Shown here in pieces: positions 2,520-35,371 of a stretch of 38,099 nucleotides of DNA (positions are counted from its first letter, which is position 1; each line of letters opens with the position of its first letter). The notes beneath the pieces are model-generated. The model was not told the origin of the DNA. It was given only the letters and a program-made list of their open reading frames with translations, and did no database searches. Made by a program: the position numbers and the translations under genes. The stretch is from Bacteroidales bacterium. GTDB taxonomy: Bacteria > Bacteroidota > Bacteroidia > Bacteroidales > UBA932. The stretch lies in assembly GCA_017451395.1 (NCBI GenBank), contig JAFSPR010000071.1:1-38099 (forward strand), read 5' to 3'.

Positions 2520-2522
2520 ACT

Positions 2523-4229: not shown

Positions 4230-4233
4230 CGCT

Positions 4234-7269: not shown

Positions 7270-7287
7270 TTGGTCAGAGATTAAATG

Positions 7288-8715: not shown

Positions 8716-8730
8716 AGGTTTTGTTAGTTA

Positions 8731-15180: not shown

Positions 15181-15198
15181 ATTATGCAGTTTATACAA

Positions 15199-15228
15199 CA
15201 AATATACAAAATAAAGCGCAAAGACCAA
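15199..15228 (-). promoter_or_regulatory. Predicted internal promoter for GH123 and the propeller gene
   Basis: Minus-strand TATATTTG at 15199-15206 matches TAnnTTTG, and TTG at 15226-15228 lies 19 bases upstream. It sits just downstream of the terminator of the preceding gene and about 19 bases before the GH123 ATG. Confidence 0.65.
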
Positions 15229-15259
15229 TAAAAACCGGCCGGACAAACGCCCGGCCGGT
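15227..15259 (-). terminator. Intrinsic terminator between the fimbrillin-like/YjiK-like gene and GH123
   Basis: On the minus strand ACCGGCCGG (15259-15251) pairs with CCGGCCGGT (15242-15234) around an 8-base loop, and TTTTTATT follows. This is a strong GC stem with a U tract, 25 bases after the stop codon at 15285. The U tract overlaps the -33 element of the next promoter. Confidence 0.8.
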
Positions 15260-15284
15260 GCCATTCATAGGGGTGAGAAGATCA

Positions 15285-16895
15285 TCAGTTTTTGTCAAAG
15301 TCTTCAAAACCGGTGAAATCGTAACGGTAAAGATAAGATGTATCACCATAATCATCTCCAACCCACATACAACTGTGAACACGGTCTATGCATACAGATT
15401 CAGGATTGGATCCTGATACAGGGTAAGCACCAAGATAGTCCATGCTTACGCTGTATTTTCCATCATTCACAGTATAATCCACATCAAAGACAAACACCTT
15501 CTTGGCCTCAGAGTCAATAATCCAGAGCCAGCCTGTCTTGGGGTCATAGCTGAAACCGGCTATCTCTGACACCCTGTTCCTGTCGTAAAGCTTTGCGTCC
15601 CACAGGACAGTCTTGGTCTCAAGGCTGCAAAGGAAGAGATGGGAATTGGACTGCGCGCCGGCAAATACTAATCCGTCCTTGAAGTAAGTGCAGCCTTCCA
15701 CACCGGCATTGCCATAATTCTTGGCAGCAGGGATATTGAAAAGCGTGGTTGCCCTTGTATTGAAATCCGGTCCCTTTACAAGCCCAACTCCATCAGGTTC
15801 AAGTCCTATGAGAAGATCCTTGGTGTCTGGGTTGAGAGACACATCCTCTGCATCTCCGCCAATATGGTAAGTCCAAAGGACGTCACCTTCGAATGAAAGC
15901 TTTGCCAGATCTCCGTTGTCGCCTACGCCCCACAGGAAATCCTTGCCCTCACTGAGGCAGATGCCAGAAAGTTCGTTGAACTTCACGGTGAACTTCTGGG
16001 AATCCCCCATCCTTGGCATCTTGGGCGGAAGACCACTGTAAGGCTCAAGCGATGAAGTAATGTTTCCAAGGTCCAGAGACCGCCCCGAAGTAAGGGAGAC
16101 GGCACTTGAAACGCTGTAAGTTGCAGTCCAGGAGCCGCTTTTGCCCAAATACAGGGTATATCCCTTCGGGAAACTGAAGTCTCCGGGGAACCAGATTTTG
16201 GACGGCTGGCCGGAAGATACCGTTCCATAACGGAAAGGATATCCGTCGTTTTGCTTTGGATTGAACTTTTTGGTCTCGGAACTATATTCGGCCTCAAAAC
16301 GGGTTATGCAAATGCCGTTTCGGTCGTTGGATGCAATTGCATAGCTGTCGTAGTCACCGTCAACAGTAAAGCTTAAAAGAGAGGACACGTCAATGAAATT
16401 GAAAGTGTCGCCACTCAGATAAGAAATAGTGAGAAGGTCCTCGCAACGCTCAAAAGTTGTCTTTATCTTGAGCACACCCTTGAACATGTATACGGCTTCT
16501 GCAGGCCACGCTGCATAGAAACTGTCTGGCTCTGCCGGAGAAGTGAGGGCCTCGGCGCCAACGGTGGCGGTTGCAGTACGGCCGTCGGCCGAAATATCTG
16601 AGGCGGAAAGAGTTATAACCTCTGTCTGGGTGCCGATATTTCCGTGGACGTAAATCTGGTCGCCGGCTTCCCAGGCACCCTTCATAGGAGAAACCACGAA
16701 TTTGTAGGTTACGGCCTTGGCGGTGCCGTCACCTTCATCCGGCTTATTCTCATCCTTGTCCTTATTGTCCTCATCCTTATTTTCAGGCGCAGGAACCTCG
16801 GGCTCCTTGTTCTCGGGCGTGCAGGAATAGCAGGAAAAAACTGCAGCGCCCACGATGGTGAGCGCCAGCAGTGATAATAATGAACTTTTTTTCAT
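15285..16895 (-). CDS. Lipoprotein with fimbrillin-like N-terminus and YjiK/SdiA-regulated-like propeller
   Basis: 536 residues. Lipobox at Cys22 or Cys25 (VFSC/YSC), then a charged Lys/Asp/Glu/Pro linker (about 27-60) that would lift the protein off the membrane. Residues 60-285 resemble fimbrillin-like (Mfa-type) modules, with the AWEAGDQIYVHG and FYAAWPAE stretches. Residues 300-536 carry propeller-like repeats (GICLSEGKDFLWGVGDNG, EDVSLNPDTKDLLIGLE, GFSYDPKTGWLWIIDSEAK) resembling the YjiK/SdiA-regulated family. No catalytic site is apparent. Its place in locus B, 10 bases after the DUF4832 gene and before a terminator, suggests a surface glycan-binding protein. Both domain calls are from pattern recognition; the function is inference. 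Confidence 0.75.
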   Translation of the reverse strand: MKKSSLLSLLALTIVGAAVFSCYSCTPENKEPEVPAPENKDEDNKDKDENKPDEGDGTAKAVTYKFVVSPMKGAWEAGDQIYVHGNIGTQTEVITLSASDISADGRTATATVGAEALTSPAEPDSFYAAWPAEAVYMFKGVLKIKTTFERCEDLLTISYLSGDTFNFIDVSSLLSFTVDGDYDSYAIASNDRNGICITRFEAEYSSETKKFNPKQNDGYPFRYGTVSSGQPSKIWFPGDFSFPKGYTLYLGKSGSWTATYSVSSAVSLTSGRSLDLGNITSSLEPYSGLPPKMPRMGDSQKFTVKFNELSGICLSEGKDFLWGVGDNGDLAKLSFEGDVLWTYHIGGDAEDVSLNPDTKDLLIGLEPDGVGLVKGPDFNTRATTLFNIPAAKNYGNAGVEGCTYFKDGLVFAGAQSNSHLFLCSLETKTVLWDAKLYDRNRVSEIAGFSYDPKTGWLWIIDSEAKKVFVFDVDYTVNDGKYSVSMDYLGAYPVSGSNPESVCIDRVHSCMWVGDDYGDTSYLYRYDFTGFEDFDKN

Positions 16896-16905
16896 AGTAC
16901 TGTCT

Positions 16906-18588
16906 CTATTCTACGGTAAACAGTTTGTTCAGGCCGGTCTTGGAATCGTACACGCCAACATTTGCAAGCGCGATGCTGAAATCAGGATTGGCGGGGATAA
17001 GAGGGTCGGAGAGTTCCAGATAGAGAGTACCGGCGGAGGTGGAAGGAGTGAAGGAACTCACCACTGCGTTGTAGCCGGAGTGCCACTGACGGGGATCGTA
17101 GCCAAGAGGGCTTCTCACCATCTTGCCGTCACTTCCCTTCCACACCAGCCAGGCTTCACGTGGATTCATGGGAGCGGCGTAGCCGTTGTTGTAGAAACGG
17201 ATGGTGACCTTGCAGGGCTTTCCTGCCTCGACGGCCTCATAGTGGACGTCCTTGAGCACCAGGCGGTAACCCAGGTTCTTCTCAATCTCGTCAAAGCAGC
17301 CGTCCCTCTTCCAGCGGTTCAGGACATCCTGGTTGTATCCGTCGTGGAGATAGGTCCAGTGATAATCCTTCAGGTCCTTGAGGGTCTGGGGGCACAGGCA
17401 GAACTCTGAAACGGCGCAGGTTTCTCCGCCCATAATGGTGTAGCGGGTGTCCTTCTTCCAGAATTCGCGGGTGTTGTCATCCTCAAAAGTGCCCTGGTCG
17501 TTGGCGCTGGCCCCAAAGCAGTCGTTGTGGCCTGCAAGCCTTGAGGCAAGGGAGCCGTCGTGGGCGGTAGCATATGTAAGGGTGTCCTTAAGGGACATTC
17601 CGTACATCATCATCTTGAACTTGGGGGTACGGAGTTCAATCTGGCGGGATTCGGGAAGGGCTGCAAGAAGGGCATCCGTCACCTGTTTGCGGGGCTTGTA
17701 GTCATTTGCGCTCCTTGGACCCTGAATGAAGTGGGAGGTGTAATACCACTCACCCCATACGCCCACAAAACCTGCCTGGAGCACAAAGATCACGTCCTCG
17801 TACATCTGGAGGGTGGGCTTTAACTGCTCGATGTGCTTTAGCACCTGCTCAACCTCGGCGTCCTTTATATCGGCATACTGGTCCTGGGTGTAGGCAAAGC
17901 GGACGATGGCCTTGCAGCCGCCCTGACGCATAGCCTCCAGGTTTGCCTGGATGTTCTTGATGTACTTTGAGGTAATGTTTCCGCTGATGTAATCCGTGAG
18001 GTAGAACTCCAGAAGGAGGACGGAGTGGCCGGTTGCGCGCCTTGCCTTCACGTCACCCGCCTGAAGCGGAGAATCTTTGTCGGAGTGAATCTCGTGGGCG
18101 GCATACAGGCCCCTTTCAGGGTTCACTATGGTGGCCGATGTCTCATCATATTCAACGGCGGTACCCGCTACTGAATCATCAGGACCGGGGATGGCGCTCT
18201 TGCCGATACCCTTGATCTCAAACGAAAGGTCCTTGGAAGCGGCCTGGAAATCTCCGGCGGCATCCTGGGACACCTTCACCGCCACCTTTGTATCCTCGAT
18301 GGCAAACACGGAGACCTCAAACTCCTTGTCTGACTTGGCGCGGACACCTGCCATGGAGGGCTTGTCCACAACAACGCGGAAAGCGCCTTCGGACTTTGAA
18401 GAGAGTGTGAGGGTGAAGGATGATCCGGACTGGACAGCCTCAGTGGGCGTTCCGCTTACGGAGAGTTCGGGATCTGCTTTCTCCTTCTTGCCGGATCCGC
18501 CTGAAGGAGTGGGATCCTGTTTCTGGGCGCAGGCCGCCACAAGAAGCAGCGCTGCGGCAAAAGGAAGTATTCTTGAAAGTGTTTTCAT
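16906..18588 (-). CDS. DUF4874/DUF4832 lipoprotein, candidate glycan-active protein
   Basis: 560 residues. Lipobox Cys20 (VAAC), a Ser/Gly/Lys linker, and a bacterial Ig-like beta domain at about 40-130. DUF4874 covers about 150-320 and begins with NPERGLY; DUF4832 covers about 340-555. Conserved candidates for catalysis are Glu280 in VWGEW and Glu389 in MGGETC, both kept in the partial copy at 2-943. DUF4874 looks barrel-like, and the GEW strand end resembles the acid/base position of clan GH-A enzymes; this is an inference. Several Cys residues in the C-terminal half could form disulfides in the periplasm or at the surface. It follows susD by 5 bases, the usual place for a surface glycan-binding protein or an endo-acting enzyme. 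Confidence 0.88.
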   Translation of the reverse strand: MKTLSRILPFAAALLLVAACAQKQDPTPSGGSGKKEKADPELSVSGTPTEAVQSGSSFTLTLSSKSEGAFRVVVDKPSMAGVRAKSDKEFEVSVFAIEDTKVAVKVSQDAAGDFQAASKDLSFEIKGIGKSAIPGPDDSVAGTAVEYDETSATIVNPERGLYAAHEIHSDKDSPLQAGDVKARRATGHSVLLLEFYLTDYISGNITSKYIKNIQANLEAMRQGGCKAIVRFAYTQDQYADIKDAEVEQVLKHIEQLKPTLQMYEDVIFVLQAGFVGVWGEWYYTSHFIQGPRSANDYKPRKQVTDALLAALPESRQIELRTPKFKMMMYGMSLKDTLTYATAHDGSLASRLAGHNDCFGASANDQGTFEDDNTREFWKKDTRYTIMGGETCAVSEFCLCPQTLKDLKDYHWTYLHDGYNQDVLNRWKRDGCFDEIEKNLGYRLVLKDVHYEAVEAGKPCKVTIRFYNNGYAAPMNPREAWLVWKGSDGKMVRSPLGYDPRQWHSGYNAVVSSFTPSTSAGTLYLELSDPLIPANPDFSIALANVGVYDSKTGLNKLFTVE

Positions 18589-18593
18589 CTGTA

Positions 18594-20441
18594 TTAGTCT
18601 GTTGCTACGTTATTGGAGCGGGGATCGTTCTGGGCGATTCCGCTGGTCAGGATCTCATCGTCGGGGATGAGCAGGGCGATACGGGGATCGTCGTAGTTGA
18701 TGGTGGTGAAGGGATGGTAACCCACATAGCGGCGGTCCAGGGTCTTCTTGTTGCGGAAGACGGAGAACATGCGGTCTCCCTCGAAGCAGAGTTCCATACG
18801 GCGCTCGTCAAGGACTACGTCAAGGGATGATTCGTAGCCGCGGGCGGCCATATTTCCGGTTGTGAACATAGCGTCGTTGGGAAGGCCAGCGCGCTTACGG
18901 ATGAGGTTCACGTCCTCAAGGGCTTTGTCGTCATTGTGGAGACGAGCATATGCCTCGGCCCTGTTCAGGAACACCTCTCCCCAGCGGAGCATAACGGGAG
19001 AAGAGAGGGTGGCCTGGCCGTCCTGCCAGGAGAACTTGGTGTTCATATAAGGCATATACATATTGGTACGGAAGGCCCAGCCGTCGGTCTCGTCAATGTC
19101 CGGGCGGATATAGGCGGGAGTCTTGCCGCCGAAGAAGGTGGCGTCTCCTGTGAAGTTGTGGTCTATGAAATAGCGGGTATAGCCGTTCACGTTGGTCTTC
19201 TTGGCGGTGTACTCCGTTCCCTCATAGGTGAACACGTAATCACCTGCGGCGTTGGGAGTGAGGCCGGCCACGTGAGCGGTGTAGCAGGCGTCGTTCTCAA
19301 ACGGTACGGGGAAGCAGACGGTCTGCTTGCCGTTATTCAGGACAACCGTCTTAGCGGGCATTCCGGAAGCGGGCCATTCTGCTGTTGCGGGATACCACTT
19401 GTAGACGAAGTAGGCGTTGAAGCGGTTGTCGGCGCAGGAGCCGTCAGGATTCTTATAACGGTTGAACAGTTCAATGAGTTCGTCGCTCCAGTACCATTCT
19501 CCCCAACCGTTGGTGCTATATTCCTGGCACAGGTACATGGCGCCGATGGAAGCCTCCGGTGAAGGGTGGTCGTTGGGGTTGATGTAATGGACGCACCAGA
19601 TGGTTTCCTTGGAAGCCCAGGTGGCCTTGGGATAATTCTGGAGGTCTGTGAGAGGATATACGCCCTTCACATAGGCGGGAGCGCTGTCGATGAGTTCATT
19701 GCATACATTGACGCAGTCCTCAAGGTGATCGTCGCCCATAAACAGGTACACGCGCGCAAGGAGGGCGCGGGCCGCGGTTGCCGACACATAGGAGGCGTCT
19801 CCGCGGGGAGAGCCGGCGTCCATATACTCGATGGCTTTCTTGAGGTCCTCAACGATTGCGTCGAATACCTCGCCGACGCTTGCGCGGGTGGTGGTGGAAT
19901 AGTCCATACCTATGCGGAGGGGAACTCCGGGAAGGTCACGGCCGCATACATAGGGACGGGCGAAGAGAGTCACCATATGGAAGTGGGCGATGGCGCGGAA
20001 GAAGTAGTTCTCGCCAAGGAGTTGGGATGTCTCCTTGGGGTTGTCGCTGGTATCGGGGTTCAGTTCCTCGATGTTGGAGTTGGCTGCATAGATTATCTTG
20101 TAGGCCATCCACCAGGTGTAGGTCTTGTTCTTTCCGCGGGGTACGTCCTCATAGCGGTAAGGGGAAGTGAAGGGGTCTTCGGAGTAACCGGAAACGGTCA
20201 CGTTGTCGCCGCGGCTTTCGGCCAACTGGAACAGGTGACGGAGATAGGTGTTTCCGGCCTCGGCGGTTCCCTTGTATTCAAGGTTGTCCTTGAAAAGGGC
20301 GTAGATGCCGTCCGTGGTATATACGGCCGATGCAGGATTCTCCTTGAGGGAGGACGATGTCATTGCATCGGAGGAATAGAAGTCCATCTTGCAGGACACC
20401 ATAGCGATGAGGGCGATGCCGATTGCTAATATCTTTTTCAT
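18594..20441 (-). CDS. susD: SusD/RagB-family glycan-binding lipoprotein (locus B)
   Basis: 615 residues; lipobox at Cys17 (MVSC). SusD/RagB layout with N-terminal helices and the C-terminal family blocks LRWGEVFLNRAEAYA and LDERRMELCFEG. A long insertion-rich middle (about 330-470), rich in Tyr, Trp and Gly, probably forms the ligand surface. It is about 47 residues longer than the locus A paralogue. It lies 15 bases after susC and 5 bases before the DUF4832 gene. By family it caps the SusC barrel and recruits the oligosaccharide. Confidence 0.95.
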   Translation of the reverse strand: MKKILAIGIALIAMVSCKMDFYSSDAMTSSSLKENPASAVYTTDGIYALFKDNLEYKGTAEAGNTYLRHLFQLAESRGDNVTVSGYSEDPFTSPYRYEDVPRGKNKTYTWWMAYKIIYAANSNIEELNPDTSDNPKETSQLLGENYFFRAIAHFHMVTLFARPYVCGRDLPGVPLRIGMDYSTTTRASVGEVFDAIVEDLKKAIEYMDAGSPRGDASYVSATAARALLARVYLFMGDDHLEDCVNVCNELIDSAPAYVKGVYPLTDLQNYPKATWASKETIWCVHYINPNDHPSPEASIGAMYLCQEYSTNGWGEWYWSDELIELFNRYKNPDGSCADNRFNAYFVYKWYPATAEWPASGMPAKTVVLNNGKQTVCFPVPFENDACYTAHVAGLTPNAAGDYVFTYEGTEYTAKKTNVNGYTRYFIDHNFTGDATFFGGKTPAYIRPDIDETDGWAFRTNMYMPYMNTKFSWQDGQATLSSPVMLRWGEVFLNRAEAYARLHNDDKALEDVNLIRKRAGLPNDAMFTTGNMAARGYESSLDVVLDERRMELCFEGDRMFSVFRNKKTLDRRYVGYHPFTTINYDDPRIALLIPDDEILTSGIAQNDPRSNNVATD

Positions 20442-20456
20442 AACTGTAGTCTCCTT

Positions 20457-23400
20457 TTAGAATTTGATGTCAATACCCAGGACAACCGACATGGGAACGG
20501 GGTAAATATCGGCATACATACCGGGCAGGCTGTAAGAGCCAACCTCCAGGTTTACTTCGGGGTCCATATCGGAGAAGCGGGTGAGGGTGAGGAGGTTATC
20601 GGCCGATACGAAGACGCGCGCGCCGCTCATCTTGATCTTGCTGATAAGGCTTGTGGGGAAGTCGTAGGACAGGGTGACGTTCCTCAGGCGGAAGAAACTG
20701 CCGTCCTCAAGATAACGTGAGGATAGTTCGTGGGCCTGGCTGTTGCCGCCTCTCTTGGCCTCAGGGTGGGTGGCCATATAGTTGGTTCCGTCAGGGTCTC
20801 CGTCCTTCCAGCGGATCCAGCCAAGGCCCGTGTTGAGGCTCTGCTGGTTGTACTGCTGCTGGGCGCCGTCGGTGTCCATAATGGTCCAGCGGGTGCGGTT
20901 GAAGATCTTGTTGCCCACCATGAAACTGCCGTTTGCGCTGAGGGTGATGCCCTTCCAGGACACGCCAAGGTTCAGACCGCCGGTGAGCCAGGGAGTTGCG
21001 CTTCCCACAAGTTGGGAAGTGGCGTCTCCGTAACTGCTGGTGATGATTCCGTCACCGGCCTTGTACTGGTCAGCGTCATAAAGGTCGGCGTCAAGTTCCT
21101 CCTGGGTGATGATGTGCTCCCACTGGGGTTTACCGTTCTCCACGTTCACGCCCATCCACTTTGGCATATACCAGGAGTAGATCTGCTGGCCTTCCCTCAC
21201 CAGTTGGGTTACCTCCGCGCGGGTAAGGGGCATATCGGCGTGATCCGGAAGTTCAACCACGCGGTTCTGGTTGAGACCGAGGTTGAAGCCCATTGTGACG
21301 TTCCAGTCGCGGTTGCGGAAAACAGAACCGTCGGCGGCGAGTTCAAGGCCCATATTCCGTACCTTACCCACGTTGTCCATCACGGAGAAGAAACCGGTTG
21401 AAGGAGCCTGGGGACGGTCCAGAAGGAGACGGGTGTTGAGCGTGTGGTACGCGTCAAGGGTGATGTTCCAGTTCTTGGCGATTGTTGCATCTACGCCGAG
21501 GCTGGTCATATACGCTTCCTCCCAGCCCAGTTTGAAGTTGGCCTGACGCTGAAGGAATGCGGCGACCACATTATTATATTGGGCGGTTAGAGAGAATGTA
21601 TCCTGGTACTGGAAGGGAGCGATAGCGTCGTTGCCGGTCTTACCGAATCCGGCGCGTACTTTCAGGAAACTCAGAACGTTGTTACCCTTGAGGAAATCCT
21701 CGTTGGAGGCCACCCAGGCGGCTGAAACTCCGGGGAAGAAACCACCGCGGTTGAGGGGGCCGAACTTGTAACTTTCGTCGTAACGGAGAGAAGCCGTCAC
21801 GATGTACTTCCCGAGGTATGAGTACTGAGCCTGCGCAAGGAGGGCCCAGGCGCGGGTGTGGTAGTCACTGCCCTCACCCAGGATGCCGTCAGGGGCGCAG
21901 TTGCTGATGGAGCGCTGGCCTGCGGGGAAGCGGTCTCCGGAAACGGCCAGGTTACGGGAATAGCCTTCGCTGTACTCCCAGCCCACCACTGCGTTTACGT
22001 CGTGACCCACGCCGAAGGTCTTGTGGAACTTGGCGAGGTTGGTGGTGCCCCAGCCGTTCCATTCTCCGTCGGAGTTGGAATAGGAGCCCTTTGAATCGGC
22101 CACTTCAGTGGTGCGGGGATCGTAGTAACTCTCCCAGAAGGAGTTGGAACTGTCGTAGCGGTTGGTGGACACAAGGGTGAGCCAGTCCGTTACGTTCCAG
22201 GTGAGCTGGAGGTCTGCGGTGAGGTTTTCTCCGTGGCCTTTCTCGTAGTTGTATTTCTCGTTGTGCAGGATGTTGTAGGTATTCTTGGAATACCACTTCT
22301 TGCGGTTGTCGGGACGGGTGCTGGAGTCAATCTTGATGGGGTCCGTGGTGTAGTAGTCGTCCTCTATCACGTAGGGAACGTCAAACGGCATCATTGTGTA
22401 TGCGGCCTCACGGGTGCGCCATTTCTCGGAGTCGGAGTAGTCCTTGGCGTAATTCACGCGGACGTTCATCAGGAGGCGGTCAGTGATGGGGGCCGACAGG
22501 TTTGCGCGGGCTGCGGTACGCTTGTAGCCGGTGTTGATCATAGTACCCTTCTCGTTGTAGTGGTCAAGGCTCACATAGTAGTTCACCTTGCCGGCCTTTC
22601 CGGATACGGAAGCGTAGTAGTCCTGGACAAGACCCGTGCTGAACACGGCGTCAATCCAGTTGAAGTTCTGGACGTCAAGCATATCCTCCGCGGGGGCGTT
22701 GCTCTTGATGGAGCCCTTGTAGAGGATCTTGCAGAAGTCGTACATCTCGTAGGAGTCCATCGGCCTGAAATGACCGGTGAGGGCCTTCTTCACACCCGCG
22801 CTTGCCTTGAAGTTCACCTGGACCTTGTCCTGCCTGGCGCTCTTGGTGGTGACAACTATGACGCCGCCGGCTGCCGCGGCACCGTAAAGGGCCGTGGCCG
22901 ATGCATCCTTAAGGACGGTGAGGGTTTCAATGTCGTTGGGGTTGAAACTGCCGCCTGCAACGCCGTCAACGACGTACAGAGGGCCTGCGCCTGCGGTGAT
23001 GGAACCGGTACCGCGGATGCGGATATCGGCGCTGGCGCCGGGCTGGCCGGTGGAGTTCATAACCATAACGCCGGCAACCTTGCCCTGGAGCATATTGCCT
23101 ACGTCGGCGGTGGTAACGTCAGTGAGTTTATCTCCGTCCATGGAAACCACGGCGCTGGTGAGTTCCGCCTTCTTCTGGGAGGTGAAACCCAGCACCACCA
23201 CTTCCTCAAGAAGCTCTGTATCCTGGCTGAGTTGAGCGTTTACCACTGTCCTGCCGCCTATTTCAACGGTTACGGAAGTGTAGCCAAGGCTGGAAAAGGT
23301 GATTGAACCGTCCTTGGGCGCGGAGATGACATACTTGCCCTCGTAGTCCGTGACCGTACCGGCACCGGAAGAGAGCATTACGCCTGCGCCAATGATCGGT

Positions 23401-23516
23401 TGTCCGTCTGTAGCGTCCACTACGGTACCGGAGACATTGATGTTCTGGGCCATAGCAAGCAGTGGCAGCGACATTGCCGCCATCACCATCATTGCCCGGA
23501 TGAATAATCGTTTCAT
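20457..23516 (-). CDS. susC: SusC/RagA-family TonB-dependent outer-membrane transporter (locus B)
   Basis: 1019 residues; Sec signal peptide cleaved near AMAQ (residue 24). A carboxypeptidase-D-regulatory-like domain (about 27-105) is followed by the plug (about 115-225, with RGTGSI and PLYVVDGVAGG) and the barrel, which ends in the aromatic-hydrophobic IKF. No STN signalling domain. It shares its organisation and many plug residues with the locus A protein, so the two are paralogues. It starts 21 bases after the kbaZ-like gene, which places a cytoplasmic sugar-phosphate gene and an outer-membrane transporter in one operon. Confidence 0.96.
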   Translation of the reverse strand: MKRLFIRAMMVMAAMSLPLLAMAQNINVSGTVVDATDGQPIIGAGVMLSSGAGTVTDYEGKYVISAPKDGSITFSSLGYTSVTVEIGGRTVVNAQLSQDTELLEEVVVLGFTSQKKAELTSAVVSMDGDKLTDVTTADVGNMLQGKVAGVMVMNSTGQPGASADIRIRGTGSITAGAGPLYVVDGVAGGSFNPNDIETLTVLKDASATALYGAAAAGGVIVVTTKSARQDKVQVNFKASAGVKKALTGHFRPMDSYEMYDFCKILYKGSIKSNAPAEDMLDVQNFNWIDAVFSTGLVQDYYASVSGKAGKVNYYVSLDHYNEKGTMINTGYKRTAARANLSAPITDRLLMNVRVNYAKDYSDSEKWRTREAAYTMMPFDVPYVIEDDYYTTDPIKIDSSTRPDNRKKWYSKNTYNILHNEKYNYEKGHGENLTADLQLTWNVTDWLTLVSTNRYDSSNSFWESYYDPRTTEVADSKGSYSNSDGEWNGWGTTNLAKFHKTFGVGHDVNAVVGWEYSEGYSRNLAVSGDRFPAGQRSISNCAPDGILGEGSDYHTRAWALLAQAQYSYLGKYIVTASLRYDESYKFGPLNRGGFFPGVSAAWVASNEDFLKGNNVLSFLKVRAGFGKTGNDAIAPFQYQDTFSLTAQYNNVVAAFLQRQANFKLGWEEAYMTSLGVDATIAKNWNITLDAYHTLNTRLLLDRPQAPSTGFFSVMDNVGKVRNMGLELAADGSVFRNRDWNVTMGFNLGLNQNRVVELPDHADMPLTRAEVTQLVREGQQIYSWYMPKWMGVNVENGKPQWEHIITQEELDADLYDADQYKAGDGIITSSYGDATSQLVGSATPWLTGGLNLGVSWKGITLSANGSFMVGNKIFNRTRWTIMDTDGAQQQYNQQSLNTGLGWIRWKDGDPDGTNYMATHPEAKRGGNSQAHELSSRYLEDGSFFRLRNVTLSYDFPTSLISKIKMSGARVFVSADNLLTLTRFSDMDPEVNLEVGSYSLPGMYADIYPVPMSVVLGIDIKF

Positions 23517-23537
23517 TGGTTATAGTTTTATTTGATT

Positions 23538-24764
23538 TTACAGAAGATCGTTCACGTTCACAAGGTTGAACGCTCGGAAATACTTGTCCATATCGCGCTC
23601 TATGCGGCCGAGTACTATTTCCTCCGCGTCAATTCCAAGCCTCTGGAGGTTTGCATAGAGGAAGCCGCGGGCGGCAAGGGTGCGGGGCTGCTGCCAGATG
23701 TACCTGCAGCAGGTGGCCACTATCCAGTCCTGGCGCTCCGGGGTGAGGGCATGGAGGGACTTTCCCTGCTCATCCTCGTGGAGCCATTTTTCCCAGCGGT
23801 GGCTGTCCTCAACCTCCTTCAGGAGAACTTCCTTCATATGGGAAAGGACTGCTACGCGGCCTTCCGCGTGGTGCTTTTTCTCAAGCTCCTCCAGTTCACA
23901 GAGGGCGCGGTATTCTGACATAGTGAATTCAGGGCCTACGTTGGCTGCTCCCATTCCGCAGAGAGGATACTCCTCAGGGTTAGCCACATCATCGGTGTAA
24001 TGACCTTTGATGTAGCTACCCAGAGGACGTACCTTGGACGTAAGCCGGCGTGCAACCTCTCCGTCGAAGATGGTGGTGTCAAGGTCTGTTCCCACCTTTC
24101 CTACGATGAAGCAGGGCCATACATCCGGCAGTCCTGCAACCATTAACCCATTTTTTAAATCACTAATGAAAGTGTCGAAAGTAGTTTCGTCGGCAAGGCC
24201 GCCGTGCACTTCCTCCGTTCCCACCTCATAGGAGATGGGAGCGACTCCGTGCTCCTTGCGGAATTTCTCCACGTGGGAGATAAGTTCCACGGTGCGGGCG
24301 GCAACCACGTGAATGTCTATTATTTCCCCCTTGGGGACGTTGATGTCTACGGTAGGATCCACGTGGATGAGGTCATATCCGGCAAGCACCGCAGCCTCGA
24401 ATGACTTCTTCACGCCGTCCATAGCGTCTTTGACGCTCCACTTTTCCACGCGCTGCCTGTCCTTGAGCCAGGGGCCGCCGTGGTCTATGGCGATTATGAC
24501 GTCTCCGGTGAAATTCACGCGCTCCGTCTCAAAGCGGACGGTGCGCACGAAGTCTTCCTGCGTCATTCCGGTGTAACCTCCGTCACAGTCAATCTGGTTG
24601 AGGGTGGCGGCGAAATAGATGGGGGCGTTGTTGCGCTTTGCAGCCCTCAGGGATGCGCGGATTACGGTAGGAGAATTGGGGCAGGCCGCAAAGATGGTGC
24701 GGGGAATGCCGGTTTTCTCACGGATGGCGTCCAACTTGTGGAGCAGTTGTTCTGTCTTAGGCAT
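23538..24764 (-). CDS. kbaZ: GatZ/KbaZ/AgaZ-family protein (tagatose-bisphosphate aldolase accessory subunit)
   Basis: 408 residues, cytoplasmic, no signal. The family is recognised from NQIDCDGGYTGMT (56-68), the IDHGGPW stretch, a GTEEVHGG block and a C-terminal region with VGPEFTMSEY and a Trp/Tyr-rich end. In enterobacteria GatZ/KbaZ stabilises the catalytic class II aldolase GatY/KbaY, which splits tagatose-1,6-bisphosphate to dihydroxyacetone phosphate and glyceraldehyde-3-phosphate, the last step of GalNAc/galactosamine breakdown. No catalytic partner is encoded here. The protein is clearly diverged (GDHLGP of E. coli reads AIDHGGPW), so it may have a different or independent activity. 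It starts 8 bases after agaS. Family confident; exact role uncertain. Confidence 0.87.
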   Translation of the reverse strand: MPKTEQLLHKLDAIREKTGIPRTIFAACPNSPTVIRASLRAAKRNNAPIYFAATLNQIDCDGGYTGMTQEDFVRTVRFETERVNFTGDVIIAIDHGGPWLKDRQRVEKWSVKDAMDGVKKSFEAAVLAGYDLIHVDPTVDINVPKGEIIDIHVVAARTVELISHVEKFRKEHGVAPISYEVGTEEVHGGLADETTFDTFISDLKNGLMVAGLPDVWPCFIVGKVGTDLDTTIFDGEVARRLTSKVRPLGSYIKGHYTDDVANPEEYPLCGMGAANVGPEFTMSEYRALCELEELEKKHHAEGRVAVLSHMKEVLLKEVEDSHRWEKWLHEDEQGKSLHALTPERQDWIVATCCRYIWQQPRTLAARGFLYANLQRLGIDAEEIVLGRIERDMDKYFRAFNLVNVNDLL

Positions 24765-24772
24765 TTTTCTTA

Positions 24773-25891
24773 TTAATTATATAAGGTAACGCCCTCCACC
24801 ACTCTGGAAATGTTTCCGGAGATGGACGGAGAGTCCGGGCTCAGGCCCAGATCCAGCGATTTGAAGAATCCAAGGAGTTGGCCCACCCAGGCGAAACTGA
24901 TGCAGCCGTAGCAGGGGGGCATGGCAGGATTCATTCCGGTGATGATTCCAAGGTCATAGTAGGATTCATCGATGGAAGGGTCGTCGGCCGATATCACGAG
25001 GGTTCCCTTTACGTTGTTGTTGGCCTTTACCTGACGGATGAGGTCAAGTTCATAGCGGCGCACCTTAGGATTTGGCGAGAGAAGGTACACAAGAAGGGAA
25101 TTGGGCTTCACCACTGCCTTGGGACCGTGACGGAAGCCAAGGAAGGAATCGTAGGAGCACATCACGGCGCCGTCCGTAAGTTCCTGGAGTTTGAGGCGGC
25201 ATTCCTCCGCCACGCCCTTCAGGGGGCCGGAGCCAAGGAACACTGCGCGCTCGAAATCCCGGGAGGCGATGTCCTTGATGGCTTCCTCGTACTTGTCAAG
25301 GGACTTCTCCACTGCGCCTGCAACCTCCCTGATAAGGGGGATGTCATCCTCAATGTGGTCTATGTTGGCTATCATAGAGCACGTGAGGAGCATTGTTGAA
25401 TAACTGCTTGTCATTGCCAGGGAGAGGTCGTTGGTCTCCGGAGGGAGGAGAACGCAGAGGATGTTCTCACCCTTCATCTGGGCCAGTTCACCGTCCTTGT
25501 TGCAGGTGATGAAGATATGGGCAACCTTTCCGGCGCTGCCTTCCACCGCCCTCAGGGCGCCCACGCTTTCCGGGCTGTTGCCGCTGCGGGCGAAACTCAC
25601 CAGAAGCACCTTGCTTGAAGAGTCGAAGTACATCTGGGGGTTGGTGATTATATCGGTGGTGGCAATTGCGCGCGCTCCCCTGAAACTGGTGGTGTAAAGG
25701 GCGGGCTCCAGGGCGTCTCCGATATAGGCCGATGTCCCGGCGCCGGTGAGCACTACATCGTAGCCGGCGTTTAGGTATTTGTCCTTGAAGGCTTTGATTT
25801 CCTGCTTCTGGGCAAGGATGGAATCCAGGGTCTTGAGCCAGACTGCCGGCTGCTGCCTGATTTCCCGGTAAGTGTTATAACTGTAGTTCAT
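24773..25891 (-). CDS. agaS: AgaS-type SIS-domain galactosamine-6-phosphate deaminase/isomerase
   Basis: 372 residues from the ATG ending at 25891; a TTG two codons upstream is less likely. Two SIS sugar-phosphate-binding domains: the first with TGAGTSAYIGD and RSGNSPES (102-109), the second with LGSGPLKGVAEE and FLGFRHGPK (250-258), a block typical of AgaS. AgaS converts galactosamine-6-phosphate to tagatose-6-phosphate plus ammonia in the cytoplasm. It is the first gene of locus B, with the kbaZ-like gene next, so the two likely run consecutive parts of the GalNAc route. It lacks the glutaminase domain of GlmS. AgaS is favoured over other SIS isomerases by both motif and neighbour. Confidence 0.9.
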   Translation of the reverse strand: MNYSYNTYREIRQQPAVWLKTLDSILAQKQEIKAFKDKYLNAGYDVVLTGAGTSAYIGDALEPALYTTSFRGARAIATTDIITNPQMYFDSSSKVLLVSFARSGNSPESVGALRAVEGSAGKVAHIFITCNKDGELAQMKGENILCVLLPPETNDLSLAMTSSYSTMLLTCSMIANIDHIEDDIPLIREVAGAVEKSLDKYEEAIKDIASRDFERAVFLGSGPLKGVAEECRLKLQELTDGAVMCSYDSFLGFRHGPKAVVKPNSLLVYLLSPNPKVRRYELDLIRQVKANNNVKGTLVISADDPSIDESYYDLGIITGMNPAMPPCYGCISFAWVGQLLGFFKSLDLGLSPDSPSISGNISRVVEGVTLYN

Positions 25892-25910
25892 TTGCAATTT
25901 TATCAGTAAG

Positions 25911-25918
25911 CAAATTTA
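25911..25918 (-). promoter_or_regulatory. Predicted -7 box for the agaS operon
   Basis: Minus-strand TAAATTTG matches TAnnTTTG, 20 bases before the agaS ATG. No good -33 TTG is seen; that position falls in the left arm of the inverted repeat at 25937-25949. Confidence 0.5.
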
Positions 25919-25936
25919 GGTTTTTTTATCCAAAAA

Positions 25937-25982
25937 GTTTCGGTTTGAGTTTTGATTTTTTATTCAACGCTCAAACCGAAAC
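25937..25982. promoter_or_regulatory. Perfect 13-base inverted repeat upstream of agaS, probable operator
   Basis: GTTTCGGTTTGAG at 25937-25949 and its exact reverse complement CTCAAACCGAAAC at 25970-25982 are separated by 20 bases. The repeat lies over the -33 region of the agaS promoter. Its CTCAAA...GAAA pattern recurs near the DeoR gene's own promoter. DeoR-family repressors often bind GAAA/TTTC-rich repeats. Alternatively it is a weak terminator for the upstream deoR-type gene, since TTTTT follows on the minus strand. Confidence 0.55.
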
Positions 25983-26061
25983 ACTATCAGCCTATTATAT
26001 ACAATTAATAATCAGCACATTAACCCGCGAATAAAAAATATTTCAACAGGTTTCGCTTTTA

Positions 26062-26856
26062 TTACGGTATAACTGTTTCCACGTTTATGTTCATAGATTT
26101 CAGTTGCCTCTTCACATTGGAAGGAAGGTTATTGTCCGTAACAATGGTGTTGATCTTGTCAACCTCCGCTATGAAGGCCAGGGCGCGCTTGTTCACCTTT
26201 GAGGAGTCAAATACGCCAATCACCTCACGGGCGCGGGAAATCATCACCTGATTGGTGCTTGCCTCGTCTACGCTGGGGGTTGAAAGACCGGTTTCAACGG
26301 AGAAACTGTCAACGCCCAGGAACAGTTTGTCACAGTAGAAAAGTTTGAGGTTGGACTCTGCCAGCGGGCCCACCATAGACATACTGGACTCACGCACCGT
26401 ACCGCCAAGGAGAATGACGTTAAACCGCTTGTACTTAAGGGCTTCCGCCATTGCGCTGATGGAATTTGTGATAATGGTGAGGTCGTCGAAGGACTGGAGG
26501 TTCTTCACCACTTCCAGAGCCGTTGTTCCGGAGTCCACCAGGATGGTGTCCCCGTTCCTTATATACTTTGCGGCGGCGCGGCCGATGGCTTCCTTCTCAC
26601 GCATGTTCACCATCTTCTTGAAACTGAGATGGCGCTCTTCCGCGGCAGGTTCGGAGGCCGATGTAGCCCCCAGGATTGCACCCCCATGCACCCTCACCAG
26701 GAGTTTCCTTTCCTTGAGGATTCTGAGATCTTTTCTGATAGTAACTTCCGAAACGCCGAAACGATTGCTCAGTTCAGTAACATTTACCGACGAATCGCTC
26801 TTTAAAAGTTGAAGAATGGCAGATCTTCGGCCCTGAGCGGAATCATATATATCCAT
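26062..26856 (-). CDS. DeoR-family transcriptional repressor (AgaR-like)
   Basis: 264 residues. N-terminal DeoR helix-turn-helix at about 22-46 (VTELSNRFGVSEVTIRKDL), the signature continuing to RVHGGA. A C-terminal DeoRC sensor domain (about 75-250, SGTTALEVVKNL; GVDSF) binds a phosphorylated sugar in this family. It is placed between the agaS operon and the PfkB kinase operon. AgaR of proteobacteria regulates GalNAc genes and belongs to this family, so a role as locus repressor is the natural inference. A 170-base gap to agaS holds an inverted repeat, and the 146-base gap to the kinase holds GAAA-type repeats. Autoregulation is likely. Effector identity, perhaps GalN-6-P or tagatose phosphate, is not visible. 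Confidence 0.92.
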   Translation of the reverse strand: MDIYDSAQGRRSAILQLLKSDSSVNVTELSNRFGVSEVTIRKDLRILKERKLLVRVHGGAILGATSASEPAAEERHLSFKKMVNMREKEAIGRAAAKYIRNGDTILVDSGTTALEVVKNLQSFDDLTIITNSISAMAEALKYKRFNVILLGGTVRESSMSMVGPLAESNLKLFYCDKLFLGVDSFSVETGLSTPSVDEASTNQVMISRAREVIGVFDSSKVNKRALAFIAEVDKINTIVTDNNLPSNVKRQLKSMNINVETVIP

Positions 26857-26880
26857 AGCGATTTAATTTTAGTGTTGCGG

Positions 26881-26909
26881 CAAATATAGACATTTTTTAA
26901 CTGAAACAA
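26881..26909 (-). promoter_or_regulatory. Predicted promoter of the DeoR-family gene
   Basis: Minus-strand TATATTTG at 26881-26888 with TTG at 26907-26909, an 18-base spacer that is slightly short. The -33 element lies inside the first GAAA-type repeat. Confidence 0.5.
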
Positions 26910-26953
26910 AACGAAATGTTTTTTTATTCGTAAAATCGAAACTCAAATGAAAT
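26903..26953. promoter_or_regulatory. GAAA-type repeats between the divergent regulator and kinase, probable operators
   Basis: GAAACAAAACGAAATG (26903-26918) and CGAAACTCAAATGAAAT (26937-26953) are spaced A-rich repeats of a GAAA core. Such repeats are the usual target style for DeoR-family proteins. They lie between the divergent start codons and could control both directions. Confidence 0.5.
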
Positions 26954-27002
26954 ATTTTCGCACTTTTTTCTAAATTAGCAAGGTTAAATAACACTAATAT
27001 CT

Positions 27003-27956
27003 ATGAAAAAATACCAAATAGCGGCTATCGGCGAACTAAACGTGGACATCATCCTCAACGGAATTGAATCTGAACCGGAGATAGGAAAGGAGAAATTCTG
27101 CAAGGATATGACCGTAACCCTGGGCAGTTCCACAGCCATTTTCGCCGCAAACGCAGCCGCGCTGGGAAGCCGCGTATGCTTTGTGGGCCTCGTGGGCCGG
27201 GATTCCTTCGGAGACCTTGTGAAGAGTTCCCTTGAAGCAAAGGGCGTAGCCACCCATTTCATCGGCACCGGAGACACACCCACCGGCGCAACCATCTGTA
27301 TGAATTACGGAGAGGACCGCGCAAACCTCACGTACCAGGGCTCCATGGACGTGATGGGATTCGACGATATAGACAAGAGCGTGTTTGACCTCTCCCAGCA
27401 TATCCACCTATCTTCCCTCTTTATGCAGAGCGCCCTTCTGAGGGATATCCATAAGGTCCTTGACCTTGCGGCGGAAAAGGGCGTCACAGTATCCCTTGAC
27501 ACCCAGTGGGACCCTATGGAGAAGTGGGCACTGGATTACAGGAGCGTCCTTCCCAAGATCACGGTCTTTATGCCAAATGAGAAGGAACTCTGCGCCCTCA
27601 CGGGCAAGGCCAGCCTGGAGGAAGCCATTAGCGAGGTCCGTCCGTACCTTGGCGGCATAATGCTGGTAAAATGCGGCTCCAAGGGGTCTCTCCTTGTGAA
27701 AAAGGACGGCTGGCAGAAACTCCTTCCCGCCTTCCTGAACAAGGACGTGGTGGACGCAATCGGGGCCGGAGACAGTTTCAATTCCGGCTTCATCAGCGCC
27801 TTCGTGAAGGGCCTTGACCCTGAGGAATGCCAGAGGACTGGTAACCTCACCGGAGCCGTCAACACCACCGGCGCCGGCGGCACCGGAGCATTCACCTCAC
27901 TTGAGGCGGTGCGTAAAGTCTGCAAGGAACGTTTTGGACAGGAACTCCCCCTATAG
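27003..27956 (+). CDS. PfkB-family carbohydrate kinase
   Basis: 317 residues, cytoplasmic. PfkB fold with N-terminal IGELNVDI, glycine-rich LGSSTAIFAANAAALG (40-55), and signature 2 DAIGAGDSFNSGF with catalytic Asp257. The family phosphorylates sugars or sugar phosphates. In this setting the candidates are tagatose-6-phosphate kinase (feeding the KbaZ-associated aldolase) or a GalNAc/GalN kinase; fructokinase-like or other roles cannot be excluded. It is divergent from the DeoR gene and first in an operon with a GH36 enzyme and two phosphatase-like lipoproteins, with 6 bases to the next gene. The substrate is inferred from context only. Confidence 0.9.
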   Translation: MKKYQIAAIGELNVDIILNGIESEPEIGKEKFCKDMTVTLGSSTAIFAANAAALGSRVCFVGLVGRDSFGDLVKSSLEAKGVATHFIGTGDTPTGATICMNYGEDRANLTYQGSMDVMGFDDIDKSVFDLSQHIHLSSLFMQSALLRDIHKVLDLAAEKGVTVSLDTQWDPMEKWALDYRSVLPKITVFMPNEKELCALTGKASLEEAISEVRPYLGGIMLVKCGSKGSLLVKKDGWQKLLPAFLNKDVVDAIGAGDSFNSGFISAFVKGLDPEECQRTGNLTGAVNTTGAGGTGAFTSLEAVRKVCKERFGQELPL

Positions 27957-27962: not shown

Positions 27963-29792
27963 ATGAAGAAAGTTTTAATTATAACGGCTATCGCCGCGGC
28001 TGCTGCGGTATCCTGTGCCGGTCCCGCCGCCGAAAACGCGGTTTTCTACAAGGGAAAGGCCCTCAAAGGATTTGAAGTGGTTATGGACGCCTCGCCCGTG
28101 GACGGGCTTGACGGAATGACCGTCCGCAACATAGGATTTGTCAACACCACCGGCAAGGACCTCCTTGTGGACGCTATGGAGACATCGGCTATAACCCTTG
28201 AAGGAGGAGACATCTGGTCCCTCCAGCCTTCTTCCACGGCAGAGCGCAAGGACTGGGTGCTTCCCGTCCCCAGGGGCTTCTACCAGAAGAATTACCTTGG
28301 AATGAATGACTCGGACTATGGCGGCGGCATCCCTATGGTAAGCCTCTGGAACGGGGAAAGGAACGTAAGCGTGGGCCTAGCGGTCCCCTGCCTTGAGACC
28401 GTAAACTTCCCGGTTGAGAGAAAGGGAAATACGGCAAGGGCGTCCATCCTCTTGGAACTGGACTCGCCCGTCGTGCTTGAACCCGGAGACACCCTTTTTG
28501 CGCTGCAGCAGTTCGTGTGGGAGGGAAAGGGAGACTTCTTCAGGCCCCTAAGGGCTTTCTCCGAATATATGCAGGAGACCTACGGCTTTGAGATGCCCGT
28601 TTCCCCTGAAGACGCCTACGAGCCCGTATGGTGCGCCTGGGGATACGAGAGGAATTTCACCGTGGACGAGGTAATCGGCACCCTTCCCAAGGTTGTGGAA
28701 CTGGGTTTCAAGTGGGTGGACATTGACGACGGTTACCAGATCTGCGAAGGGGACTGGACCACCAACGACAGAATCGGCCCGGAAGGGATGAAGCGTATGA
28801 CTGACGCCGTCCACGCAGCCGGCCTCAAGGCCAAGATCTGGTGGGCCCCCATGGCCGCAGACCCTGAAAGTTCGTTGGCGAAGGAGCATCCTGAAATGCT
28901 TCTTGTCCAGAAAGACGGCTCCCATGAGGACATTTCCTGGTGGGACAGCTGGTACCTCTCCCCCGTCAACCCCTACACCTGGGAATACACGGAAGGCCTT
29001 GTGGATATGTTCCTTGCGCAGTGGGGCTTCGACGGCTTCAAACTTGACGGCCAGCACCTTAACCTGAGCGCCCCGGACTACAACCCCGCAAGCGACCTTG
29101 AATATCCCGGAGAGGCCCAGGAGCGTCATCCGGAGTTCTTCCAGCACCTTTATGACCGCGCGCAGTCCATAAAGCCCGGCGCCGTGGTTCAGATATGCCC
29201 CTGCGGCTGCGCGGTGAATTTCTTCTACCTTCCTTATATGAACCAGGCCGTGGCTTCGGACCCCACTTCCAGCGCCCAGATACGCCAGAAACGTAAAGTC
29301 TATGCCGCCCTGGCCCCCGGGCTGGCATACTACGCAGACCACGTGGAACTCTCCGACGGCGGCCTTGACTTTGCCTCCCAGATAGGTGTAGGCGGCATCA
29401 TCGGCACAAAATTCACTTGGCCTAAGGTCAATCCTGACGCCAAGGAGTCCGGCGGCAGCCTCCTCACCCCCGAAAAAGAGGAACTCCTCCGCAAGTGGGT
29501 GCCCATCTACAAGGAAAAGATGCTCTCCAAGGGCCTTTACCGCGGAGATCTCTATACTTACGGCATCGACAAGCCGGAAGCGCACGTCATTGAAAATGAC
29601 GGTGCAACGTTTTACTCTTTTTATGCATCTTCCTGGAGTGGAGATCCCATTGAACTACGCGGCCTTGACCCTGCAAAGTCATACACCGTGACGGAATACA
29701 CTGAAACTGAGCCCCGCTCCTACACCATTGACGGAGCAAACCCCATAATTACGCCAACGTTTGAAGGCAACTACCTCATTGAAGTCAGATAA
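27963..29792 (+). CDS. GH36-type alpha-galactosidase/alpha-GalNAcase lipoprotein
   Basis: 609 residues; lipobox Cys18 (AVSC). N-terminal beta-supersandwich (about 28-200), then a (beta/alpha)8 barrel. WVDIDDGYQ lies at 251-259, the predicted nucleophile Asp362 in GFKLDGQH, and the predicted acid/base Asp433 in ASDPTSS. These match the clan GH-D pattern of alpha-galactosidases and alpha-N-acetylgalactosaminidases, but the motifs differ from the textbook KWD/SDNTD of the second GH36 at 32638-34854. It is therefore a different branch of the family. It is co-transcribed with a sugar kinase and two secreted phosphatase-like proteins. The preference between Gal and GalNAc cannot be read from the sequence. 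Confidence 0.87.
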   Translation: MKKVLIITAIAAAAAVSCAGPAAENAVFYKGKALKGFEVVMDASPVDGLDGMTVRNIGFVNTTGKDLLVDAMETSAITLEGGDIWSLQPSSTAERKDWVLPVPRGFYQKNYLGMNDSDYGGGIPMVSLWNGERNVSVGLAVPCLETVNFPVERKGNTARASILLELDSPVVLEPGDTLFALQQFVWEGKGDFFRPLRAFSEYMQETYGFEMPVSPEDAYEPVWCAWGYERNFTVDEVIGTLPKVVELGFKWVDIDDGYQICEGDWTTNDRIGPEGMKRMTDAVHAAGLKAKIWWAPMAADPESSLAKEHPEMLLVQKDGSHEDISWWDSWYLSPVNPYTWEYTEGLVDMFLAQWGFDGFKLDGQHLNLSAPDYNPASDLEYPGEAQERHPEFFQHLYDRAQSIKPGAVVQICPCGCAVNFFYLPYMNQAVASDPTSSAQIRQKRKVYAALAPGLAYYADHVELSDGGLDFASQIGVGGIIGTKFTWPKVNPDAKESGGSLLTPEKEELLRKWVPIYKEKMLSKGLYRGDLYTYGIDKPEAHVIENDGATFYSFYASSWSGDPIELRGLDPAKSYTVTEYTETEPRSYTIDGANPIITPTFEGNYLIEVR

Positions 29793-31142: not shown

Positions 31143-31173
31143 TAAACCTGAAACTATAAGAAAAAGAATAACT

Positions 31174-34894: not shown

Positions 34895-34953
34895 ACAATT
34901 ATTTGCAAGATGAGAGACTCCCCGCGCAATTCCTCGCCCCGCTTCCCGCCGGG

Positions 34954-34995
34954 CAACGAAACGCGCAAAAAAAGCCAAAAACGTGTAGTTCATTG
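34954..34995. repeat. 42-base repeat unit, copy 1
   Basis: 35 of 42 bases match copy 2 at 35006-35047. The ends, CAACGAA and TTCATTG, are near inverted complements, and the inner part holds GCCAAAAACGTGT in both copies. The layout resembles a small palindromic extragenic element. Confidence 0.7.
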
Positions 34996-35005
34996 ACCAA
35001 AAGGG

Positions 35006-35047
35006 CAACGAAACGCACATAATCGGCCAAAAACGTGTGCTTCATTG
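35006..35047. repeat. 42-base repeat unit, copy 2
   Basis: Second copy, beginning 10 bases after copy 1 ends. Its ends form a better inverted pair: GGGCAACGAAACGCAC at 35003 against GTGTGCTTCATTGCCC ending at 35050 (13 of 16 pairing positions). Confidence 0.7.
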
Positions 35048-35110
35048 CCCCACATATTGTAATGCCTATGCGGTGGAAGCTAAACCATTATCACACAGCC
35101 ACTTACACAA

Positions 35111-35140
35111 TTCTTTGGGATTACCGGTAATCCCAAAGAA
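35111..35140. repeat. Perfect 30-base palindrome
   Basis: The left half TTCTTTGGGATTACC is followed directly, with no spacer, by its exact reverse complement. A spacerless palindrome of this length could be a dimer-protein or recombinase binding site, or the core of a mobile repeat. It is a poor terminator because it has no loop. Confidence 0.85.
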
Positions 35141-35165
35141 CCCCATAATCCGCTGATACACAAAC

Positions 35166-35269
35166 AGTTAACCCCCACCCAATCGGCATTACCATGTCTG
35201 CTGAGCACCCAGTTAACCTCCACCCAATCGGCATTACCATGTCTGCTGAGCACCCAGTTAACCTCCACC
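35166..35269. repeat. 45-base tandem repeat, 2.3 copies
   Basis: Units begin at 35166, 35211 and 35256, each with AGTTAAC; the third copy is cut after 14 bases (AGTTAACCTCCACC). Units 1 and 2 differ by a single base early on. The period is a multiple of three, which keeps a frame open on the minus strand. Confidence 0.85.
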
Positions 35270-35371
35270 GCCAGGGGAGAAACATAAAGGGAGTGAGCGA
35301 AAGCAACCATGCGCACTACAACTCCACCGGGCAGGACTCGGGAATGGGGCGGGAGTTTGTGTAAAAAGTTG

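Follow-up and report, generated by a model that had tools for sequence, protein, structure and literature searches.

Gene organization of the locus

The window analyzed here is one contig of a Bacteroidales bacterium at its full length of 38,099 nucleotides (contig C12 of a 133-contig, 2.15-Mb assembly, 81% complete). It carries a codirectional minus-strand run in which genes for an AgaS-like and a KbaZ-like protein are followed by a SusC/SusD pair. A DeoR-family regulator gene is located 5' of agaS in the same direction, and a PfkB-family sugar kinase gene is divergent from deoR, followed by a GH27/36-like (glycoside hydrolase, GH) gene and two Y_phosphatase3 genes. Coordinates are listed in Table 1.

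The run spans positions 25891-11922; from agaS/kbaZ on, its genes are separated by 8, 21, 15, 5, 10, 20 and 7 bases. An earlier note on this DNA, hereafter the original prediction, gave the agaS/kbaZ-like/susC/susD gaps as 8, 21 and 15 bases, which is exact; the operon that it described is real, but the codirectional genes continue past susD to 11922. The agaS open reading frame (ORF) was listed to 25897 with a TTG start, and the start is likely the ATG at 25891. Given these gap sizes, the run may be read as a single transcript, and the arrangement supports a shared promoter region upstream of agaS that would serve both enzymes and importer.

The regulator was assigned to the DeoR family by an HTH_DeoR domain and a DeoRC sensor domain, both above cut-off. 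Its best NCBIfam match was AgaR (NF040755), at 235 bits and under the curated cut-off of 260. The DeoR-family gene and the PfkB kinase were found upstream as originally predicted. Likewise, no hybrid two-component system (HTCS), extracytoplasmic function (ECF) sigma/anti-sigma or SusR-type regulator was found among the 24 window proteins covered by the Pfam scan. The locus is a polysaccharide utilization locus (PUL), since its tandem susC/susD pair is accompanied by enzymes that cleave glycans: GH123 within the run itself, and GH20, GH109 and GH31 in a second run.

Table 1. Position, strand and supporting match of the features at the locus.
Feature	Position	Strand	Match
AgaS-like SIS-domain protein, first gene of the run	24773..25891	-	TIGR02815 334 bits; PDB 3odp E 3e-73
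KbaZ/GatZ-like protein, divergent subfamily (Ala52, Asn275)	23538..24764	-	PF08013
SusC-type TonB-dependent receptor	20457..23516	-	TIGR04056 735.6 bits, above cut-off
SusD-type lipoprotein	18594..20441	-	PF07980, PF14322
DUF4874/DUF4832 protein	16906..18588	-	
Protein with weak SdiA-regulated match	15285..16895	-	20.5 bits, below cut-off 21
GH123 enzyme	13327..15264	-	PF13320 171.3 bits
DUF6528 protein, last gene of the run	11922..13319	-	25.6 bits, cut-off 23.5
DeoR-family regulator, AgaR-like	26062..26856	-	PF00455 168.5 bits, PF08220 63.8 bits
PfkB-family sugar kinase, divergent from deoR	27003..27956	+	PF00294 151 bits; no NCBIfam cut-off reached
GH27/36-like protein after pfkB	27963..29792	+	Melibiase 41.4 bits
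TAAATTTG, -7 box of agaS promoter	25911..25918	-	
Proposed DeoR operator at agaS, 13-bp perfect inverted repeat (arms 25937-25949 and 25970-25982)	25937..25982		
TATATTTG, -7 box of deoR promoter	26881..26888	-	
TGAAACAAAACGAAATG, proposed operator over deoR -33 region, GAAA repeated at 10 bp	26902..26918		
CGAAACTCAAATGAAA, second conserved site, pfkB side	26937..26952		

Promoter and candidate operator at agaS

The inverted repeat 5' of the agaS -7 box was equalled or surpassed in 5 of 2000 dinucleotide shuffles of the deoR/agaS gap. Seven loci come next in AgaS identity (87-98%); six of them have perfect arms of 12-15 bp, and the other has a pair of arms with a mismatch. In farther relatives, the upstream arm decays and CGAAA keeps its register. 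Counting the window, 46 loci have a TAnnTTTG box, and in 43 of these CGAAA lies 17-22 nt 5' of the box (200 shuffles of the 5' part: mean 1.2, maximum 5). Five of 51 loci (L082-L086) lack a standard -7 box.

Control upstream regions (n=70, 8 with a -7 box) were compared with the agaS regions. CGAAAC/GTTTCG density was 9.47 per kb at agaS and 1.47 in the controls. Because these are few and GC-richer than the agaS regions, the CGAAA spacing was also set against the shuffles given above. In 50 nonredundant agaS regions, each 150 bp long, CGAAAC/GTTTCG occurred 70 times, whereas 200 shuffles averaged 7.1 with a maximum of 15. Other loci carry tandem CGAAACGAAA copies. Of the deoR/agaS gaps from 15 farther loci, 11 contain TTTCGAAA, against a mean of 0.6 and a maximum of 5 in 500 shuffles. 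In the window's own genome, GTTTCGGTTTGAG has two exact copies, both at agaS. The lone 12-mer half-site, allowing up to 3 mismatches, showed no enrichment in the window, with 27 occurrences against 32.9 expected.

A general sigma-70/terminator scan of the window was uninformative (17 promoter-like sequences, 11.4 expected; 18 terminator-like sequences, 17.2 expected). An RNA hairpin formed by the inverted repeat is unlikely, since the repeat sits 5' of the -7 box. A one-mismatch site on contig C123 was discarded, as the surrounding ORFs, judged by reading without a family search, appeared unrelated to sugar use.

Sites in the deoR/pfkB gap

The site TGAAACAAAACGAAATG corresponds to TTTCGTTTTGTTTCA read towards deoR and contains TTTG 18 nt from the deoR -7 box. 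Its only exact copy in the own genome lies in the deoR/pfkB gap. A loose GAAAC-N5-GAAA repeat was present in 46 of 46 such gaps (DeoR at least 68% identical, window included). The AgaR consensus consists of TTTC-type repeats. For RhaR, another DeoR-family member, direct-repeat motifs with 10-11 bp periodicity are described (PMC3870299). DeoR-type direct repeats of approximately 10 bp occur in the deoR/pfkB gap, whereas the agaS half-sites of the window are inverted instead.

The stretches 25930-25990 and 26900-26955, which were singled out in the original prediction, hold conserved operator-like sites (25937-25982 and 26902-26952). This footprinting gives good support to a single predicted circuit in which DeoR would act at both promoter regions.

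Conservation of gene order

Related loci were obtained in one scan of genome contigs with the KbaZ-like protein, and the best 80 of 81 stretches were kept, resulting in 73 loci. Family presence was scored by tblastn (E<=1e-15). Many loci are cut by contig ends, and since the loci share descent, counts are not independent events. The named relatives are for the most part assemblies of Bacteroidales sampled from the rumen or elsewhere in the gut of ruminants; the genus is probably Cryptobacteroides. AgaS and PfkB were each detected in 65 of the 73 loci, DeoR and SusC each in 63, GH27/36 in 54 and GH109 in 32.

Of the 66 loci that reach 1.5 kb or more beyond the end of kbaZ, 54 have susC as the next gene and 7 have pfkB. 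In two Alistipes loci, pfkB behind kbaZ was missed by ORF calling and recovered by tblastn. A DUF4874 gene follows kbaZ in L033, and an alkaline phosphatase gene in L050 and L092. Alistipes, Dysgonomonas and Alkaliflexus have the order agaS-kbaZ-pfkB-class II aldolase (KbaY-like), then GH27/36; in Alistipes and Alkaliflexus, susC-susD come next in the same direction.

At larger distance, KbaZ (E<=1e-60, own genome left out) was detected in 12 of 392 genomes of an order sample and 16 of 394 genomes of a phylum sample. The regions around all 12 order matches and 8 of the 16 phylum matches gave 20 distant loci, with AgaS in 16, PfkB in 15, KbaY in 12, DeoR and Amidohydro_2 in 11 each, SusC in 10, GH27/36 in 7 and EamA in 6. 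At order level, susC lies downstream in the same direction in 6 of 12 loci, and some others end earlier. The DeoR-AgaS-KbaZ-SusC order recurs in other Bacteroidales beyond chance; its conservation there was a test set by the original prediction.

Fixed head and varying importer

For the 53 loci whose KbaZ shares 80% identity or more, median identity to the window was 82% for PfkB, 77% for DeoR, 68% for AgaS, 87% for KbaZ, 61% for SusC and 51% for SusD. Across 39 complete loci, scored by the best tblastn match per locus and not by trees, the head proteins covaried (Spearman 0.40-0.73), as did SusC and SusD (0.87); head against SusC/SusD gave 0.11-0.36. Five loci with KbaZ at 97-99% identity and enough sequence behind it had SusC at 98, 84, 62 or 61%, or none adjoining kbaZ. 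We read this pattern as a probable exchange of the importer at the kbaZ/susC junction.

Pathway enzymes and substrate

AgaS and KbaZ stayed under their NCBIfam cut-offs (529 bits for TIGR02815; 104 bits against 568.8 for TIGR02810). The best PDB match of AgaS is titled putative tagatose-6-phosphate ketose/aldose isomerase, and the protein resembles solved AgaS-type proteins. For GatZ and KbaZ of E. coli, C4 epimerization between fructose 6-phosphate and tagatose 6-phosphate is reported, and a metal site along with a pair of glutamate and lysine is said to be conserved family-wide (PMC11907403). The metal site (positions Asp87, His88, Glu171 and His257) and Cys20 are common to these enzymes and the window's clade, where they are kept in 65 of 65 sequences, whereas Glu44 and Lys279 are replaced by Ala52 and Asn275. 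In the single GatZ-type paralogue of the genus that was examined, Glu and Lys are retained, and the His257 column shows Ala, perhaps by misalignment.

Companion genes were sought in a genus sample of 151 genomes, many of them incomplete, comprising 29 with a close KbaZ and 122 others. KbaY (E<=1e-60) was detected in 12 of the 29 and 5 of the 122 (Fisher p 9e-7 in this sample). The own genome has an unlinked KbaY-like aldolase gene, which is 71% identical to the Alistipes operon copy and does not reach the specific NCBIfam cut-offs. An EamA permease (E<=1e-40) was present in 24 of 29 KbaZ genomes vs 4 of 122 others (p 4.5e-19, uncorrected for kinship). These 4 genomes carry a distant GatZ-type paralogue, as do 5 genomes lacking EamA. 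In the own genome, the EamA gene (L196:1574-2485; contig C85, 4.1 kb) lies beside an alkaline phosphatase gene. This permease is the best candidate for the inner-membrane importer.

Amidohydro_2 genes were found, besides the 11 distant loci, in 9 of 29 KbaZ genomes and 0 of 122 others, and are a candidate for the missing deacetylation step in other lineages. Such neighbours are encoded at L072:12226-13395 and in L164-L166, L168, L169, L171-L173, L175, L176 and L178. In the window's genome, no Amidohydro_2 match was obtained at E<=1e-50. Some NagA match (E<=0.001) was obtained in 58 of the 151 genus genomes, 21 of them above 180 bits. No N-acetylgalactosamine (GalNAc) kinase was clearly recognized in the cluster; PfkB could phosphorylate an amino sugar or tagatose 6-phosphate.

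The originally proposed sugar, GalNAc, has partial support: AgaS, GH109 and GH123 are in keeping with it, but NagA was not found in the 81% complete own genome or in the related loci, the cluster shows no clear GalNAc kinase and KbaZ is divergent. The head genes probably digest a galactosamine-type sugar inside the cell.

Proposed mechanism and alternatives

The best explanation, which we consider likely, is a PUL under a one-component AgaR-like DeoR repressor, with the run from agaS to the DUF6528 gene as one message and a GalNAc- or galactosamine-type substrate. Observed in the sequence are the gene order and its conservation, as well as the conserved sites and how far these lie from the -7 box; DeoR binding, repression, the inducer, the single transcript, the substrate and every enzyme activity are predicted from sequence. 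Without sugar, DeoR would occupy GTTTCG/CGAAAC half-sites over the agaS -33 region and the divergent deoR/pfkB promoters. A sugar phosphate derived from the imported glycan, likely a GalNAc- or galactosamine-type one, would free DeoR from these half-sites. The genes agaS-kbaZ-susC-susD-DUF4874-SdiA-like-GH123-DUF6528 would then be expressed as one message, so that importer and cytoplasmic enzymes are made together. AgaS would yield tagatose 6-phosphate, which may pass to PfkB and the unlinked KbaY-like aldolase, or undergo C4 epimerization at the KbaZ-like protein.

Several observations weigh against this explanation. At the promoters, the CGAAA spacing is missed in L092, L057 and L049, which have a -7 box, and L085 and L086 lack both a standard box and CGAAA at the near box. 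The weight matrix built on the deoR-side site gave the agaS region of the window a score of -10.5, and just 14 of the 51 agaS regions exceeded the shuffled 95th percentile. As this matrix transfers poorly to agaS, the promoters share half-sites, not one identical site. Reversed control patterns matched the own genome 6 and 7 times vs 3 and 3 for the motifs, so a lone match carries no meaning. At kbaY, no consistent site was found in 17 genomes, and the gene was rejected as a regulon member. As to the substrate, NagA had no match in the own genome at its 81% completeness, nor in any of 97 related loci searched with three verified NagA queries, and exceeded 180 bits in only 2 of the 29 genus genomes with close KbaZ. 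The pocket replacements Glu44 to Ala52 and Lys279 to Asn275 occur in 65 of 65 clade sequences. Finally, GH123 was found in only 1 and GH20 in 0 of the 73 loci; these enzymes are therefore local to the window's lineage.

The promoter data bear on a different role for DeoR. It might be an activator, or CGAAA might be only a promoter element at -33, with DeoR controlling itself and pfkB and exerting no repression at agaS. CGAAA does occupy the place expected of a -33 box, where TTTG was found in 0 of 45 agaS promoters (and in 0 of 8 control promoters as well), and the full deoR-type repeat is absent from the window's agaS region. However, a spaced perfect inverted repeat with arms of 12-15 bp in 6 of the 7 closest relatives, together with the tandem CGAAACGAAA copies and the TTTCGAAA cores in other families, resembles regulator sites, and CGAAA was in place in 0 of 8 control promoters, a small and GC-richer set. 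We regard this alternative as unlikely. Lower still do we rate the view that catabolic head and importer are mere neighbours without functional coupling, susC being under its own control. The low correlation of SusC/SusD identities with the head would fit it, but the 21-base kbaZ/susC gap in the window, the position of susC after kbaZ in most loci and its codirectional place downstream in half of the order-level loci argue for coupling, and the view seems very improbable.

A further alternative concerns the sugar. Instead of GalNAc, free galactosamine or another galacto-configured sugar might be phosphorylated by PfkB and isomerized by AgaS, with the KbaZ-like protein as a C4 epimerase of altered specificity; this is a serious possibility, if somewhat short of an even one. 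The scarcity of NagA favours it, as does the invariant Ala52/Asn275 pair. KbaY (E<=1e-60) was not found in 17 of 29 KbaZ genomes, so KbaZ need not serve KbaY there. The Amidohydro_2 protein would be a possible deacetylase acting before uptake, but the window's genome shows no such match, many genomes being incomplete. GH109 at the related loci and the GH123 and GH20 of the window suggest N-acetylhexosamines instead.

The head might form a fixed regulatory socket controlled by DeoR, into which SusCD/hydrolase cassettes are exchanged, within a NagA-less galactosamine-type route of Bacteroidota that has the divergent KbaZ and EamA at its center. We put this forward tentatively and hold it somewhat doubtful. 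If true, a new glycan importer would come under an existing switch at once. Since the head is fixed and the importer varies, the locus could show how new glycan uptake joins such a switch.

Other features of the window

The second SusCD run (930-10509) contains GH20, GH109, SusC, SusD and GH31. Its head showed no DeoR-type site, and the window proteins scanned include no regulator that would belong to this run. DUF4874/DUF4832 proteins are encoded at 2-943 as well as within the agaS run and recur in 46 of 73 loci. Two Y_phosphatase3 proteins and a metallophosphoesterase are encoded at 29811-32637 and 10583-11914. Phosphatases recur outside the window: an alkaline phosphatase is encoded in L072 as well as at L196:2487-3623 (own genome) and in L033, L050 and L092, and is paired with EamA in the latter four. 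Given this recurrence, the glycan or an intermediate may be phosphorylated. Between a GH36 and a PLD gene, at 34951-35271, there are direct repeats at spacings of 45 and 52 bases as well as a perfect inverted repeat of 15 bp (35111-35140). The window contains no tRNA, and no Rfam match reached the gathering thresholds.

Comparison with known systems

PUL control in Bacteroidota is mostly discussed in terms of HTCS, ECF/anti-sigma and SusR-type regulators. The original prediction treated SusCD control by any other regulator as unusual, which was overstated, as NanR, ManR and AraR precede it (PMC3969230, PMC3878776). The nan operon of Bacteroides fragilis and Tannerella forsythia is described with nanLE, nanT, nanOU (SusC/SusD-like) and the putative repressor NanR, and as sugar-induced (PMC3969230). 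Like the window, it unites catabolic genes, SusC/SusD-like transport genes and a one-component regulator in one locus; unlike the window, it is described for sialic acid, with other enzymes and a helix-turn-helix regulator. ManR (GntR) and AraR (NrtR) of B. thetaiotaomicron are predicted to cover both cytoplasmic sugar enzymes and SusCD operons, but belong to other regulator families, and the table of that study contains no DeoR regulator or GalNAc pathway (PMC3878776). As described, PUL BT4240-50 of B. thetaiotaomicron resembles the window in combining mucin GalNAc, GH109, SusCD and a cytoplasmic kinase in one PUL, but has a GalNAc kinase with O1 as the supported site, and its main text mentions neither AgaS, tagatose nor DeoR (PMC11992087).

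In the open-licence papers searched, no DeoR-controlled PUL and no AgaS beside SusD was found. The aga/kba systems of Proteobacteria share AgaS, KbaZ and the DeoR-family AgaR with the window. Their AgaR operator consists of TTTC-type repeats, and they are not known to have SusCD. A Shewanella aga regulon was reportedly described by Leyn et al. in 2012. Unlike the window, aga/kba systems are described with phosphotransferase system or permease uptake and with NagA/AgaA (PMC12118421).

If the proposed mechanism holds, the switch is a cytoplasmic sugar-phosphate sensor that covers enzymes and outer-membrane importer in one message, and the loci mark a galactosamine-type pathway with its own KbaZ subfamily and a candidate inner-membrane sugar permease. 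New here are the importer that varies nearly independently of a fixed head and the co-occurrence of the EamA permease with kbaZ. The control logic matches that of NanR and ManR/AraR; differences lie in the family of the regulator, in the enzymes and in the importer, which varies here.

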